Below, piece by piece: positions 15,759 to 21,567 of a stretch of 64,000 bases of DNA (the first letter of the stretch is position 1; every line of letters begins with the position of its first letter). A program made the position numbers and the translations under genes. The notes beneath the pieces were generated by a model. That model did no database searches, was not told where the DNA came from, and worked only from the letters and a program-made list of their open reading frames with translations. The DNA comes from Deltaproteobacteria bacterium (GTDB taxonomy: Bacteria; Myxococcota; Myxococcia; Myxococcales; SZAS-1). The stretch is from NCBI GenBank assembly GCA_018266075.1, contig JAFEBB010000036.1, forward strand, positions 1 through 64,000. Reading direction: 5' to 3'.

Positions 15759-16472
15759 TTAGAATCCGCCGGTTCGGGGAACGCCGCGGTTGTAGCCCGC
15801 CTCGGGCGCCGGACGGGCCGCGCCAGCGTTTCCGATGGCGTGCACCACCGCCGGATAGAGCTCTGCAGGCCGTGCACCGCGCCGCAGCGCCGAGCCCACC
15901 TGGCCCAGGAGCACCTCGCGCGGGACCGCGCCCTCGCGGGCCAGCCGCTGCGCCGAGCTCACCAGCGACGAGAGATCCGTGCGCGAGTAGCCGCGCTCGG
16001 CCGCAAGGGCCACCACCTCGGCCGCGGCGGGAACCGCGAAGCCCGAGCTGGCCAGCGTCGAGAGCGCCAGGCAACGACCGGCGGCCTCGTCGACCGTGGT
16101 CGAACCGCGGAGCGCGCGCGAGAGCGGCGCCTTCTCCACGCCCGCGAGCCGCGCCGAGGCCGCCGACTCCACCAGCGCCGGCGCAGGCGTCAGCCCCGCC
16201 TCGACGAGCGCCGCGCGTCCATCGACGGCGGCCAGCCTCAGCGACTCGAGCAAGTCCAGCACGCGCGCGGCGTCGGCGCCCTTGGCCTGCCACTCCTGCA
16301 CGCGATCCACGGCGGACGCGCGCGCGAGCCCGGCGGCGACCAGGCCGTCCAGCCGCTGCTGCGCGACCGCTTTTTGATCCGCCGAGAAGTTCGCGAGCGC
16401 CGCGTCGACGTCCGCGTCCGCGCGGGCCACGCCGGGCAGAGCTATCACCAGCGCCAAAAACAGGGCCTTCAT
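15759..16472 (-). CDS. Secreted Ala-rich helical protein, function unknown
   Basis: 237 residues with a signal peptide (cleaved near ARA). The rest is predicted almost entirely helical and rich in Ala, Leu and Arg, with no Cys-based or enzymatic motif. No family is recognised. Its ATG overlaps the stop of the upstream lipoprotein gene by 4 bases (ATGA), so it is the third gene of the operon headed by the outer-membrane barrel with the CBM48-like domain. A periplasmic partner of that barrel is a reasonable guess. Confidence 0.7.
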   Translation of the reverse strand: MKALFLALVIALPGVARADADVDAALANFSADQKAVAQQRLDGLVAAGLARASAVDRVQEWQAKGADAARVLDLLESLRLAAVDGRAALVEAGLTPAPALVESAASARLAGVEKAPLSRALRGSTTVDEAAGRCLALSTLASSGFAVPAAAEVVALAAERGYSRTDLSSLVSSAQRLAREGAVPREVLLGQVGSALRRGARPAELYPAVVHAIGNAGAARPAPEAGYNRGVPRTGGF

Positions 16473-16975
16473 GGCAGCACCTTCAAGTCCGCCGCGGGGC
16501 GCAGCACCAGCCTGCCCTGGCCGTCGCGGGCGACGGTCGCCGCCAGATCCCAGTCGACGTCGAGGTGCACGGAGTTTCCTTGCAGCTGCGGCAGGGGCAG
16601 CTCCAGCACCGAGCGCGCGTCGGGATCCAGCGGGAGCGCGCCCGAGAGACCTTCGTCGAGATCCAGGCTGATCTGCAGCGTGCTCAGCGTGCCCTGGGGG
16701 ACGTCGCGCTCGGCGGCCAGGGTTCCCGAGCCCAGGGTGCAGAGGTCGAAGGTGCGCGCGCCCTCCTCGTCGCTGACGAGGGTGCGCCACTGGCCTCCAA
16801 TGCCTGGCACGTCGTCGAACACCCGGATCTCCTCCACCGTGAACCGCGCCGTGGCCACGCCATCGGGCGGCTGGCCATGCGCCGACATCTCCACCAGCAC
16901 CGTCTGGGAAGGCTGGCCGCAACCAACCAGGCCCCCGAGCCCCACGAGCAGCGCCAAGGCGCAAACGCTGCGCAT
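16469..16975 (-). CDS. Lipoprotein with DUF4382-like beta domain
   Basis: 168 residues. Lipobox LVGC with Cys19, then a beta-rich domain with FTVEEIRVFDD and regularly spaced hydrophobic strands, resembling DUF4382-type surface lipoproteins, which is a weak match by eye. It lies 8 bases after the barrel gene and overlaps the next gene by ATGA. Its operon position suggests it works with the outer-membrane barrel. Confidence 0.7.
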   Translation of the reverse strand: MRSVCALALLVGLGGLVGCGQPSQTVLVEMSAHGQPPDGVATARFTVEEIRVFDDVPGIGGQWRTLVSDEEGARTFDLCTLGSGTLAAERDVPQGTLSTLQISLDLDEGLSGALPLDPDARSVLELPLPQLQGNSVHLDVDWDLAATVARDGQGRLVLRPAADLKVLP

Positions 16976-16983
16976 CACTCGGT

Positions 16984-18216
16984 TCAACGGGTGGCCCCCC
17001 GGTCGGATGCGTCCGGCACGTTCAAGACGGCGTCGGTGCCGCCCATTCCATCTGCCTCGTAGCCGTCGGCGTCGGGCGGTGCAAGCCGCACCCCGTCGAC
17101 GATGAGCTGGTAGCGGTAACGCCCCGGCTGGAGGTCGAGCTCGACGACGAAGTGCCCCGGTCGGGTCTCGGTGAGCGGCACGCCGGGCGCCTGCCAGCGC
17201 TGGAAGCTGCCCACGATCGACACGCTCTTGGCGTTCGGGAGCTCCAGCTCCAGCTTGTACCGGCCCGGTCGCTCGGGGAGCGGCGCAGCGAGCGCGTGCG
17301 GCGGCGGGCTCCAGCCGTAGCGCCAGCTGAAGTCCACGCCGGCCACGGCGCGGCTGAAGATGGCCAGCGGGTAGTTCGAGACCGTGCGCTCGAAGCTGGC
17401 CTCCAGCCCGGGGCTGAAGGCGCCCCAGTGGTAGGCGAGCTCGGCGTGCGCCAGCCACTCCAGATCCTGCCGGCCGACGGCGAGATCCGTGACCGGGAAG
17501 TTCGGCAGGGCGACGCGGCGGCCGTCGAGGTGCAGCGCGACGTCGAGCGCACCACGCGACCAGGTTCCACCCAGCTCGAGCAGCTCCAGATCGCCCGCAG
17601 CCGTGGCCGCGTTCGACCCGCGCGACTCCCCTCGCAAGGAGCCGTCCACCGCGAACGGCCCCGCGAGGAGGCGGGCCATCAGCGTCACCGCGAGCACGGA
17701 GTCGTTCTCCAGCACCCGGTACGCGCTCTCGCGCGCGGGGAAGTGCCGCACGCCGCCCTCGAGCCCCAGGCCCAGCTCCAGCGCGCCCACGGCCATCCCG
17801 GCGTCGAGGCCCGCGAGCGCGCGCTGCAGGTGGTCGCTGCGGAAGGCGGAGATGGCGTAGTCGTCGCCGAGCTCCTCGAGCCCCAGCGAGAACCGGCCCA
17901 GGGCGAGCGTCTGGCTCAGGCTCGCGCGCAGCACGCGGTAGTAGCCGTGCGCGTACTGCGCGTACTGGGTGAGCGAAGCCTCGGCGTCGGCGCCGAGCGT
18001 GAGCCGCCCGACCGCAAGATTTCCGAGCAGCCGCGGACGCACGGCGACGAAGCTGTCGTGCGCGGTGGCCAGCGCGTCGTTGGTCGACTGCGGCTCGATG
18101 GCCAGGTCCTGCACGGCGCCAAAGAAGAGGTTGGAGTCGTAGCCCGCGCGCAGGTCCACGCCAGCCGACGCCCCACCGGACGCAGCCAGGGCCAGGCCCA
18201 CCAAGGCCGCGATCAC
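16984..18216 (-). CDS. Outer-membrane beta-barrel protein with C-terminal CBM48-like domain
   Basis: 410 residues. A signal peptide (cleaved near ASA) leads into a long amphipathic beta region (about 20-310, alternating aromatic and small residues) likely to be an outer-membrane barrel. The C-terminus (about 318-402) is an AMPK/CBM48-like early set domain: SVSIVGSFQRW, GHFVVELDLQPGRYRYQLIVDG and GGTDAVLNV. The same domain ends the anti-sigma factor encoded divergently at 18887. CBM48 domains usually bind alpha-glucans. Whether the domain lies inside or outside the outer membrane is unknown. Confidence 0.8.
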   Translation of the reverse strand: MIAALVGLALAASGGASAGVDLRAGYDSNLFFGAVQDLAIEPQSTNDALATAHDSFVAVRPRLLGNLAVGRLTLGADAEASLTQYAQYAHGYYRVLRASLSQTLALGRFSLGLEELGDDYAISAFRSDHLQRALAGLDAGMAVGALELGLGLEGGVRHFPARESAYRVLENDSVLAVTLMARLLAGPFAVDGSLRGESRGSNAATAAGDLELLELGGTWSRGALDVALHLDGRRVALPNFPVTDLAVGRQDLEWLAHAELAYHWGAFSPGLEASFERTVSNYPLAIFSRAVAGVDFSWRYGWSPPPHALAAPLPERPGRYKLELELPNAKSVSIVGSFQRWQAPGVPLTETRPGHFVVELDLQPGRYRYQLIVDGVRLAPPDADGYEADGMGGTDAVLNVPDASDRGATR

Positions 18217-18362
18217 GCCCAGCTCCTCAAGAGGCCATGCATTTCAGCCAATTGGGGCGCGGTCTGCAATGTAGGCAGAGCGCGCATCGGACAAACGGGT
18301 CGCGCGTTGTAGTGTCGGGGAAGAGGCCGCGTCTGGGACCCGTGTCCACCACCCGTGTCACC

Positions 18363-18890
18363 ATGGAGGGCGTCTCCGCCGAGGAGGCGCGCGAGCTGGT
18401 CGACCGGCACCGCGCGCCTGTGTACCGGGTAGCCCTGCGCATGCTGGGCGACGCCCACGAGGCCGAGGACGTGACCCAGGAAGTGCTGCTCCAGCTCTGC
18501 CGCACCCGCGCCAGCCTCAAGCCCGGCAGCGACGAGGGCGCCTGGGCGTACTCCATCGCCATCAACCGCTGCCGCGACATCCTCCGCTCGCACCGCCACA
18601 AGATGCTCGCCCTGGCGCCCATCGAAGAGCTCGACGGCGAGGACCTCCGCCCCACCCAGGACCTGGCGCTCGACCAGGCCCGCCGCGAGCGCCAGGTGCA
18701 GGAGGCGCTGCAGCTCCTGCCCGCGAGCTACCGCGAAGTGCTCGTGCTTCGCGACTTGGAAGGTCAGCCCTACCGCCGCATGTGCGAGGTGCTGAAGCTG
18801 TCGGAGACGAACTTGAAGGCCCGGGTGATCCGCGCGCGCCGCGCCCTGGCCCGGGTGCTCGTGGCCGAAAACGCGGAGGACGAACAGTGA
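18363..18890 (+). CDS. ECF-type RNA polymerase sigma factor
   Basis: 175 residues from ATG 18363; GTG at 18342 would add seven residues. Region 2 (about 10-75) includes MLGDAHEAEDVTQEVLLQLC and region 4 (about 110-170) includes LPASYREVLVLRDLEGQPYRRM and the helix-turn-helix. ECF sigmas direct RNA polymerase to a small regulon and are held by an anti-sigma factor. The next gene, overlapping by GTGA, encodes that partner. The divergent barrel operon is its most likely target. No -35/-10 pair of ECF type could be defined with confidence. Confidence 0.9.
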   Translation: MEGVSAEEARELVDRHRAPVYRVALRMLGDAHEAEDVTQEVLLQLCRTRASLKPGSDEGAWAYSIAINRCRDILRSHRHKMLALAPIEELDGEDLRPTQDLALDQARRERQVQEALQLLPASYREVLVLRDLEGQPYRRMCEVLKLSETNLKARVIRARRALARVLVAENAEDEQ

Positions 18891-19687
18891 ACCGCGCCCA
18901 CCTCGAGCGGATCCGTGCCCTCGTCGATGGCGAGCTCCCGGAGGCAGACGCCGCCGCGCTTCGCCTCGAGGCCGCGCGCGATCCGGCGCTGGCCGCCGAG
19001 CTGCGCCGGCAAGAGGCGCTGCACCAGAAGCTGCTCGCCCTCGGCTCGCCCGCGCTTCCGGCGTCGCTCTCGGTGGACGCGCTGCTCGGCCGCGCGCTGG
19101 CCCGCGCGGATCACGAGCGGATCCGCGCGTATGTCGACGGCGAGCTCAAGCCCGACGCCATCGCCGAGCTGCTCGCGAACGCGCGCACCCATTCGAACCT
19201 CGACCGCGAGCTCCAACGGCAGCTCGCCCTGCGCCGCACGCTCGCGTCGCTGCCGCAGCCCAGGCCGCCCATGCCCAAGCCGCAGCCGGGCTGGCTCTCG
19301 CTGCTCCTCGGGCGCCGCGCGCTGGGGCTGAGCTTGCCCGCCGCCGCCGCTGCCGGGCTGTTGCTCTTCGGGGCTGGCACGGTGGTGGGCCGCCGGAGCC
19401 CGACGCCGGCGACGACCGTGGCCGAGCAAGACCTGGTGCCGGTGCGCTTCGTGATCCTCGCGGGTGACGCGCAGAACGTCTCCGTGGCGGGCAGCTTCAA
19501 CCGCTGGTCGGACAAGGCCACGCCGCTGGCGCCGGTGGGCGACGGCGTCTGGGAGGCCACGGTGCGCCTGCCGCGCGGCGAGCATCGCTACATCTTCCGC
19601 GTGGATGGCCGCTGGCAGCCGGATCCGCTCGCGCCGCAGCTCGTGCCCGACGGCATGGGCAACATGGACGCGGTCATCCAGCTCTAG
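18887..19687 (+). CDS. Membrane anti-sigma factor with CBM48-like sensor domain
   Basis: 266 residues from a GTG overlapping the sigma stop by 4 bases. The cytoplasmic part has two tandem copies of a helical unit with the same motif, HLERIRALVDGEL (5-17) and HERIRAYVDGEL (76-87). Neither has the HxxxCxxC of zinc anti-sigma domains. A membrane helix (about 145-168) is followed by a periplasmic CBM48/AMPK-like domain (about 185-266) with VSVAGSFNRW, HRYIFRVDG and MGNMDAVIQL. The natural reading is a glycan-sensing anti-sigma factor. The duplicated sigma-binding unit and glycan-binding output are unusual. Confidence 0.85.
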   Translation: MNRAHLERIRALVDGELPEADAAALRLEAARDPALAAELRRQEALHQKLLALGSPALPASLSVDALLGRALARADHERIRAYVDGELKPDAIAELLANARTHSNLDRELQRQLALRRTLASLPQPRPPMPKPQPGWLSLLLGRRALGLSLPAAAAAGLLLFGAGTVVGRRSPTPATTVAEQDLVPVRFVILAGDAQNVSVAGSFNRWSDKATPLAPVGDGVWEATVRLPRGEHRYIFRVDGRWQPDPLAPQLVPDGMGNMDAVIQL

Positions 19688-19820
19688 AAATCGCCGCTGA
19701 ACACGATGAAGCCCGGCTCACGAGCTCGTGAACCGGGCCCGACGTAGTCATCCAGCTCGAAGAATCGCCGCTGAGAACGACGAAGCCCGGCTCACGAGGT
19801 CGTGAACCGGGCTCGATGAT
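19673..19820. repeat. Tandem 74-base repeat with stem-loops after the anti-sigma gene
   Basis: Copies at 19673-19746 and 19747-19820 are about 85 % identical by eye. Each holds a hairpin (19711-19738 and 19785-19812) with GCCCGG/CCGGGC ends and a central inverted TCACGAG/CTCGTGA-type core. Copy 1 includes the last four codons and stop of the anti-sigma gene, so the gene end and hairpin were duplicated together. The hairpins may act as bidirectional terminators with the convergent lipoprotein genes, though T runs are absent. A further pair of GATCCGGATC units follows at about 19825-19846. Confidence 0.8.
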
Positions 19821-19854
19821 TTCGGATCCGGATCTTGATCCGGATCAAGCTGGC

Positions 19855-20676
19855 TCAGGGCGAGCCGCAGCCGATCCAGGTGTCGACGCGCTGGCGGTCG
19901 CTCTGGGAGAGGCCGCCGCCCGGAGGCATGGAGCCCGAGTCGATGCGGCCCTGGCCGCTGTCGGCAAAGCTCTTGGACACGCTGTGGCAGCTGCTGCACT
20001 TCGACGTGAAGAACGACTTCATCGTGCTGGTCCACGTGTCGGTGGTGCACGCGCCGGTGGTGCCGGTGGTGGAGCCGCTGCTGGTGGTGCTGCCCGAGCC
20101 GGTGGTGGTGGCGCCCGCGGTGGTGGTGCCGCTGCTGGTGGCGCCCGCGGTGGTGATGCCGCCCGTGGTGGTGCCGCTGCTGGTGGTCGTGGTGCTGCTG
20201 CTGGTGGCGCCCGCGCTGGTGGTCGTGCCGCTGCTGGTCGCACCGGCGCTGGTGGTGCCGCTGCTGGTGGCACCCGCGCTGGTGGCACCCGCGCTGGTCG
20301 CGCCCGCGCTGGAGTTGCCGCTGTCGCCACCGGAGCCCGTGCCGCCCGAGGTGGCGATGATGCCCGCGCAGGTGCCGGAGCTGGGGTAGCAGCCGGTGTT
20401 GCCGTTGTCGTCGATGGTGAAGCAGGTGAGGCCGGTGTCGCAGGTGCCGTCCGAGTAGCACGGCGTGGTGCAGAACTGGTCGCCGGTGGCGTCCTCGGTG
20501 GCGCAGAACGCGTTGGGGCCGCAGTCCGCGTCGTGCGTGCAGGCGCGGCACACCTGGTTGGTGTTGATGGCTGCCTGCGGCTGGCTCGGATCCGGCGCGA
20601 GGTCGCTGTTGGGCGAGTAGTTCGCGCCGCAGCTCGCGGTCAGCAGAACCAGCGTGAGGGTGGCGAGGCGTTTCAT
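19855..20676 (-). CDS. Cys-rich lipoprotein with Ser/Thr/Ala linker and one CXXCH motif
   Basis: 273 residues. Lipoprotein signal with Cys16; a Cys-rich EGF/Dickkopf-like region (about 43-103); a low-complexity Gly/Ala/Ser/Thr linker (about 109-208); and a short C-terminal domain with CSSCH (227-231), a possible axial Met250 in SMPPGG, and a final Cys. The end resembles a small cytochrome c-type domain, as in many Myxococcota surface lipoproteins. It is the second of two tandem paralogues 16 bases apart. Haem attachment is inferred from motif only. Confidence 0.75.
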   Translation of the reverse strand: MKRLATLTLVLLTASCGANYSPNSDLAPDPSQPQAAINTNQVCRACTHDADCGPNAFCATEDATGDQFCTTPCYSDGTCDTGLTCFTIDDNGNTGCYPSSGTCAGIIATSGGTGSGGDSGNSSAGATSAGATSAGATSSGTTSAGATSSGTTTSAGATSSSTTTTSSGTTTGGITTAGATSSGTTTAGATTTGSGSTTSSGSTTGTTGACTTDTWTSTMKSFFTSKCSSCHSVSKSFADSGQGRIDSGSMPPGGGLSQSDRQRVDTWIGCGSP

Positions 20677-20692: not shown

Positions 20693-21313
20693 TCACGGTG
20701 CTCCGCAGCCGATCCACGCCACCACGGCGTCGATCTGTGCCTGATCCAGGCTCTCGCCTGGGGGCATCCTGCCGGAGTTAATCTCGTCGATCATCGTGTC
20801 GCTGTTGCGTCGAACGTCGCCCAGGTCGAAGGCGTGGCACCCGTTGCAGTGGGTGTCGAAGAACGACTTCATTGATGAATTCCAGGTGTCGGGCGTACAC
20901 CCACCACCACTCGAGCCGCCCGTCGTCGAGCCGAAGTCGGCGCACGTCGCCACCACCGGGTAGCAGCCCGTCTGGCCCGCCCTGTTTCCGACCTGGAAGC
21001 ACGCTTGTCCGTCTGGGCAGGTGCCGCCGGGGCCGCAGGGCGCGGTGCAGGCGTCGTGCGGAAGATCTTCCACGCAGAAGCCGCCCGCGGCGCAGTCGGC
21101 GTCGCTCTCGCAGCGGGTGCACACGGTGGGGCCCGTTGAGGCGGTGCCGGTGGAACCCGAGGTGCTGCCGCTGCTGGAGGCGCTGGTCACTGCGCCGTGC
21201 ATCCCGCCGGTGGCCTGGTTCAGCTTGGGATCCGGCTCGTGGACAGCCTCCGGGTTGCACCCCGGGAGCAGGGCCAGCGAGAGCAGCGCGAGCTGGGCAC
21301 GTGGGCCGACCAT
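20693..21313 (-). CDS. Cys-rich lipoprotein with one CXXCH motif, paralogue
   Basis: 206 residues. Lipobox LLPGC with Cys19, short Ser/Gly linker (about 45-62), Cys-rich segment (about 65-125), and a C-terminal domain with CNGCH (156-160) and Met183 in RMPPGE. It shares layout and residues (DTWNSSMKSFF versus DTWTSTMKSFF, WIGCG at the end) with the next gene, so the pair arose by tandem duplication with the linkers then changing in length. Start 21313 begins the lipoprotein signal. Confidence 0.75.
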   Translation of the reverse strand: MVGPRAQLALLSLALLPGCNPEAVHEPDPKLNQATGGMHGAVTSASSSGSTSGSTGTASTGPTVCTRCESDADCAAGGFCVEDLPHDACTAPCGPGGTCPDGQACFQVGNRAGQTGCYPVVATCADFGSTTGGSSGGGCTPDTWNSSMKSFFDTHCNGCHAFDLGDVRRNSDTMIDEINSGRMPPGESLDQAQIDAVVAWIGCGAP

Positions 21314-21567
21314 CGTCACTCGGATCCGGAAAAGAGTGCCCGGATTCGATGCAGTCAACGCGCGGCGAATGGGCCGGATGCGTCCTGTTTCAGGACAGGA
21401 GAAGTGCCTGATTCCGCTCGGAGAAATCGAAACGGCGGGCGCGCGAAGTTTCCCCGCTTCACTCGGGCGCGCCCAAGCTTCGCGATGCGGGGAGCGTGCT
21501 GCGCGAACCGCCAACCGGCCGGATCACGGGTCACCGTCGCGCACCCAGCGGGGGAACTTCGCGTCCG

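Follow-up and report, generated by a model that had tools for sequence, protein, structure and literature searches.

We consider it an even call whether the locus described here represents a widespread type of trans-envelope module in which a CBM48 domain on an anti-sigma factor acts as a glycan sensor and frees its sigma factor. The locus lies in a 64,000-nucleotide stretch of a deltaproteobacterial genome (Myxococcota; contig JAFEBB010000036.1), referred to here as the window. As read from sequence, the parts of the module are an ECF sigma factor, a one-pass anti-sigma factor carrying the CBM48 domain, an outer-membrane barrel, a second periplasmic CBM48 domain, and a helical protein.

Results

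Gene order and domains of the window locus

The open reading frames, strands, and coordinates of the sigma, anti-sigma, and barrel genes (Table 1) agree with those in a preliminary description of this DNA. The sigma factor scores 88.8 bits against TIGR02937 (cut-off 42.9) and, like ECF sigma factors, has regions 2 and 4 only (Sigma70_r2 and Sigma70_r4_2), with no Pfam match to region 3; read from the sequence, the ATG at 18363 (or the GTG at 18342) is a more probable start than 18237. The anti-sigma reading frame overlaps the sigma stop by 4 bases, and from this gene order we infer that its product binds and inhibits the sigma factor. The anti-sigma factor shares with class I (ZAS-type) proteins its membrane location and a gene that adjoins and overlaps that of its sigma factor; its zinc-finger match (zf-HC2) reaches 18.8 bits against a Pfam cut-off of 22.2, and zf-HC2 is matched at E 0.01 in five of the 40 homologues in anti-sigma alignment A3.

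The cytoplasmic part of the anti-sigma factor is a tandem duplication whose two copies are 46% identical across 56 residues; in alignment A1 the nine remaining anti-sigma sequences carry a single copy and show a gap in place of copy 1. Residues 1-50 are modeled by AlphaFold as helical (pLDDT 95-98). A transmembrane segment (hydropathy >1.6) is present in 60/61 anti-sigma homologues, and in the window protein the CBM48 domain sits beyond this helix, outside the membrane as first proposed. At one related locus (L072:4284-5330), sigma region 2 and an anti-sigma-CBM48 protein share one 349-residue open reading frame from which region 4 is apparently missing, either as a natural fusion or through an assembly deletion.

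On the other strand, the barrel gene is present in the divergent operon as described, together with a DUF4382 lipoprotein gene and the gene for the helical protein (15759-16472), a partner that had been missed; the last two genes overlap as ATGA. Genes resembling that for the DUF4382 lipoprotein were seen in modules L037 and L084 and, weakly, in L136. Just 3′ of the anti-sigma gene is an imperfect tandem repeat of ~65 bases (19670-19830) with a CCCGGCTCACGA...TCGTGAACCGGG stem in each unit, which also duplicates the last bases of the gene (GTCATCCAGCTC); beyond it lie two adjoining genes for secreted proteins with Ser/Thr/Gly-rich linkers (19858-20676 and 20696-21514), probably paralogues, with weak cytochrome c-like C-terminal matches.

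The source genome (7.84 Mb) has three AMPK1_CBM domains by the Pfam model, two of them within 2.7 kb in the window. The third belongs to the anti-sigma factor of a paralogous module on another contig, which contains a sigma factor, an anti-sigma-CBM48 protein, a barrel, a CBM48 lipoprotein, and a helical protein.

Table 1. Features of the module locus in window coordinates, with the evidence for each
Feature	Position	Strand	Evidence
Secreted helical protein ("EGLAKG" family)	15759..16472	-	HMM E 1.6e-11
DUF4382 lipoprotein, divergent operon	16469..16975	-	PF14321 E 1.3e-7; lipobox LVGC
Outer-membrane 14-strand beta-barrel with C-terminal CBM48 (predicted)	16984..18216	-	AlphaFold and Foldseek
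Predicted periplasmic CBM48-type domain of barrel, residues 318-400	17017..17265	-	pLDDT about 85-94; AMPK1_CBM 36.6 bits
Divergent intergenic region, both promoters expected	18217..18362	.	Family ECF motif not found by weight matrix
ECF sigma factor, regions 2 and 4	18237..18890	+	Sigma70_r2 E 3e-17, Sigma70_r4_2 E 1.5e-11 (Pfam)
Anti-sigma factor, transmembrane, C-terminal CBM48	18887..19687	+	AMPK1_CBM above cut-off; zf-HC2 weak, below cut-off
Anti-sigma domain copy 1, residues 3-58	18893..19060	+	46% identity to copy 2, E 3e-11
Anti-sigma domain copy 2, residues 73-128	19103..19270	+	Alignment A1
Transmembrane helix, about residues 145-163	19319..19375	+	Hydropathy 1.82
Predicted periplasmic CBM48/AMPK-beta-type domain, residues 183-265	19433..19681	+	pLDDT 93-98; Foldseek AMPK-beta E 8e-9

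Fold and predicted placement of the two CBM48 domains

The anti-sigma factor and the barrel had been described as ending in the same CBM48/AMPK-like domain, and both match the AMPK1_CBM model (cut-off 26.8 bits), the former at 50.2 bits (E 3.1e-13) and the latter at 36.6 bits (E 5.2e-9). Over 73 residues the C-terminal domains of the two proteins can be aligned gap-free, at 37% identity (E 2e-10 in a single comparison), and the short matches noted earlier (VSVAGSFNRW/VSIVGSFQRW, RVDG/IVDG, and GNMDAV/GGTDAV) all fall inside this alignment. Among PDB sequences, the anti-sigma domain is matched best by AMPK-beta (E 2e-11) and the barrel domain by pullulanase and AMPK-beta (E 6e-5 to 4e-3). In the Foldseek comparison that the preliminary description had recommended, both domains lead to the AMPK-beta glycogen-binding domain; AMPK-beta chains are the best matches of the anti-sigma domain, with a TM score of 0.89 by target length against 1z0m. 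The structure models give a CBM48/AMPK-beta beta-sandwich fold for both domains.

In a tree of 121 CBM48 domains, anti-sigma and outer-membrane copies lie apart, requiring 9 label changes as against 55 in shuffles, and the window barrel domain groups with barrel and lipoprotein copies (branch 90/92), on a long branch, and not with its own anti-sigma factor. Because the tree separates the two lineages, the domains are an old pair of paralogues inherited in fixed, separate roles. Local duplication of the domain was rejected, since the barrel domain is placed with other outer-membrane copies; specific co-evolution of the two domains was likewise rejected, as partial Mantel tests gave no excess over the cytoplasmic anti-sigma part.

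The barrel is modeled by AlphaFold as 14 strands (residues 16-300) followed by the CBM48 domain, at moderate confidence (mean pLDDT 73.5), and the best-fitting solved barrels are OmpG-like (Foldseek TM 0.61-0.68 by target length). It has the barrel fold of the OmpG-type 14-strand porins but differs from them in having no Pfam porin-family match and in carrying an extra, predicted periplasmic CBM48 domain. Barrels with an even number of strands have both ends on the periplasmic side; the C-terminal domain is therefore expected in the periplasm, and the earlier proposal of a ligand bound at the outer membrane is not supported in so far as it suggests binding at the cell surface. Both CBM48 domains would then face the periplasm, one at each membrane. 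Split and fused barrels share no sequence homology in plain HMM searches; in a profile comparison covering most of the barrel they are related at 87.6% probability, a value that could reflect general barrel features.

Distribution of the module and its helical protein

GTDB genomes were scanned with ten anti-sigma proteins, yielding 394 relatives, of which the best 80 were read. With loci from the same phylum added and two duplicates dropped, we obtained 64 sigma/anti-sigma-CBM48 modules, 61 of them in full; the latter come from about ten phyla, a range that is a lower bound because reading was confined to the 80 best-matching loci, and for the same reason the proportions given here are not unbiased. 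Record titles include Nitrospira, Thermodesulfovibrio, Gemmatimonadota, Eisenbacteria, Krumholzibacteriota, Rokuibacteriota, Vicinamibacterales, Acidobacteria, Spirochaetes, Elusimicrobia, Aliifodinibius, and deltaproteobacteria.

A second CBM48 gene lies nearby in 43/61 modules: as a fusion to the barrel (21), as a small protein encoded after the anti-sigma gene (8) or upstream of the sigma gene (9), or as a lipoprotein encoded after the barrel (5). None was found in the stretch examined in the other 18, some of which end at contig ends. The two domains are thus conserved together across phyla, against the possibility raised at the outset that they would not be, and this recurrence excludes a chance pairing. 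Clustering of the module neighbors revealed no carbohydrate enzyme or transporter as a constant neighbor. Six other loci (L118, L147, L152, L154, L158, and L168), from Eisenbacteria, Krumholzibacteriota, and Elusimicrobia, have clustered genes for large proteins, each bearing between two and four CBM48 domains in tandem, with no sigma gene upstream.

The most constant partner is the secreted helical protein, present in 60/64 modules and recognized in the clustering by its EGLAKG motif and by a polar tail rich in Gly, Arg, and Pro. The window gene is matched by an HMM trained only on loci from the multi-phylum scan. When this HMM was run against 4006 open reading frames of the other loci, the window gene among them, every match lay inside a module, and among 195 phylum genomes all ten strong matches (E <1e-35) adjoin a module, two of them in the source genome. 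No NCBIfam match was found among the members tried, and Pfam matches are scattered and weak. Nitrospira members (L093:9103-10074 and L101:9144-10097) have long Arg/Asp/Ser-rich tails with RSERDR repeats.

A promoter motif associated with the module

The motif GT[AG]AC-N15..17-CGTC occurs upstream of the sigma gene in 23/60 regions, compared with 0.4 expected from shuffling and one on the opposite strand. It also precedes the helical-protein gene in 12/57 cases (0.3 expected; 1.6% of random windows contain it), and ten of these 12 sites begin one base ahead of the stop codon that closes the upstream CBM48 gene, so that this codon forms part of the −35 element (L031:7583, L034:7268, L091:6565, L104:10026, L151:9423, and others). 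AAC/CGTC is a form of ECF promoter, and it is very likely from the motif's form that the sigma factor drives its own module in the members that bear it.

Within the window, a weight matrix (to which no significance is attached) found no good site in the 18217-18362 interval, where a one-mismatch site lies on the - strand at 18361; a motif search in the Myxococcota-centered set alone gave nothing above shuffles. The earlier placing of both operons under one sigma factor accordingly fits the family at large, which has a common promoter motif, but because the motif was not found between the window's divergent genes, co-regulation here is a candidate only.

Ligand-contact residues

AMPK-beta contacts beta-cyclodextrin by stacking of W100 and W133 and by hydrogen bonds from K126 and N150 (PMC9788615), and glycogen binding by AMPK-beta1 is abolished by K126Q or W100G and weakened or partly disrupted by W133L (PMC6274970). 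The 61 anti-sigma domains, which have the same fold, keep W100 in 61, W133 in 57, and N150 in 59, but K126 in none, having M in 47 and Q in 10; in control CBM48 domains of other proteins, K occupies this position in 15/16. At W100/K126/W133/N150 the window anti-sigma factor has W, I, W, and D. The AMPK-beta domain also differs in being cytoplasmic, whereas the anti-sigma domain is predicted to be periplasmic. By these residues, the anti-sigma family keeps the putative ligand face with a changed specificity. With this lysine substituted in every member, glycogen held as AMPK-beta holds it is probably not the ligand; the case for the alpha-glucan suggested earlier is weakened across the whole family by the M or Q at K126, while W100, W133, and N150 are kept.

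In the window barrel domain, the corresponding residues are W, Q, R, and D. The proposed glucan binding by this domain, which keeps W100 and has the other three positions replaced, is doubtful; given the loss of binding residues, a structural role or a partner surface is more likely. Sugar-contact residues are also poorly kept in lipoprotein CBM48 copies. Overall, the preliminary interpretation is partly supported.

Discussion

We favor glycan sensing by the anti-sigma factor as the mechanism and give it close to an even chance, with signaling by contact between the membranes as its main rival. The anti-sigma factor would hold the sigma factor at the inner membrane, and a periplasmic glycan or glycan-like ligand, possibly one that crosses the barrel or is bound close to it, would dock on the conserved two-tryptophan face of its CBM48 domain. 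Docking would alter or expose the anti-sigma factor so that the sigma factor is freed, and the freed sigma factor would raise expression of its own operon and of the barrel, CBM48, and helical-protein genes.

Rather unlikely, by our estimate, is a relay by protein contact in which the barrel CBM48 touches that of the anti-sigma factor, or the helical protein is contacted by both, and the state or assembly of the barrel is thereby reported much as from FecA to FecR, and CBM48 serves as a protein interface with no reading of sugar. This would suit two domains that are both predicted to face the periplasm, with the second kept as a separate lineage whose sugar residues are poorly retained in the lipoproteins and the window. 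Distances among anti-sigma domains correlate with those among outer-membrane domains (r 0.60, with a partial r of 0.24 once sigma distances are taken into account), but the partial correlation is larger (0.39) when the cytoplasmic anti-sigma part is set against the outer-membrane domain. The 18/61 modules in which the examined stretch (in some cases ending with the contig) lacks a second CBM48 speak against a relay, as does the tryptophan face, which protein contact would not require to be kept.

That same face, intact across phyla, is left unexplained by an envelope-stress response in which damage is sensed by general proteolysis and the CBM48 domains only tether their proteins to a polymer, for example peptidoglycan or exported polysaccharide. 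An auto-regulated ECF sigma factor with outer-membrane and secreted targets is a usual layout of a stress response; the module fits this layout, and has no constant nutrient-use neighbors, yet we regard such a response as improbable. Least of all do we credit chance or a recent local duplication with no functional link between the domains: CBM48 is common in glycoside hydrolases, and of the related genomes searched roughly one in three has at least one match, but the pairing in 43/61 modules and the grouping of the barrel domain with outer-membrane copies leave this reading very little weight.

For glycan sensing, the nearest precedent is SigI/RsgI of Clostridium thermocellum, in which a one-pass anti-sigma factor has an outside C-terminal domain that can be a carbohydrate-binding module (PMC12203970). 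The likeness lies in this architecture. RsgI acts in a Gram-positive bacterium on sigma-I, uses CBM3, CBM42, PA14, or GH10 sensors, and has a periplasmic-type domain with described autoproteolysis, whereas the window module combines an ECF sigma factor and CBM48 with an outer-membrane barrel and a helical protein; no Pfam match to the RsgI N-terminal or periplasmic domains was found in the window proteins up to E 1. FecI/FecR/FecA likewise pairs an ECF sigma factor with a one-pass regulator bearing a periplasmic sensor and an outer-membrane barrel with an extra periplasmic domain (PMC9249621), all features with counterparts here. FecA, however, is a TonB-dependent receptor whose signaling domain is N-terminal, and the window barrel is small, with 14 predicted strands and a C-terminal CBM48 domain; FecR, STN, and plug domains gave no Pfam match in the module proteins searched.

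The open literature that we searched, a scope outside which the numbered ECF group classification falls, contains no description of such a module. We hold it plausible, at somewhat less than an even chance, that this is an undescribed system of about ten phyla in which paired CBM48 domains at the two faces of the periplasm, together with a new family of secreted helical proteins, convey the presence of a glycan or the state of a channel to one sigma factor. The known carbohydrate-binding anti-sigma sensors are those of Gram-positive cellulose degraders; here the sensor domain is a different one and is accompanied by an outer-membrane barrel, in diderm groups that include Nitrospira, Gemmatimonadota, and Myxococcota. 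The promoter motif makes the module regulon predictable, and scattered genes, along with a secreted family that has no Pfam or NCBIfam model, become one testable unit. If the proposal is true, the state or contents of the envelope would be sensed across the periplasm by a system not previously described.
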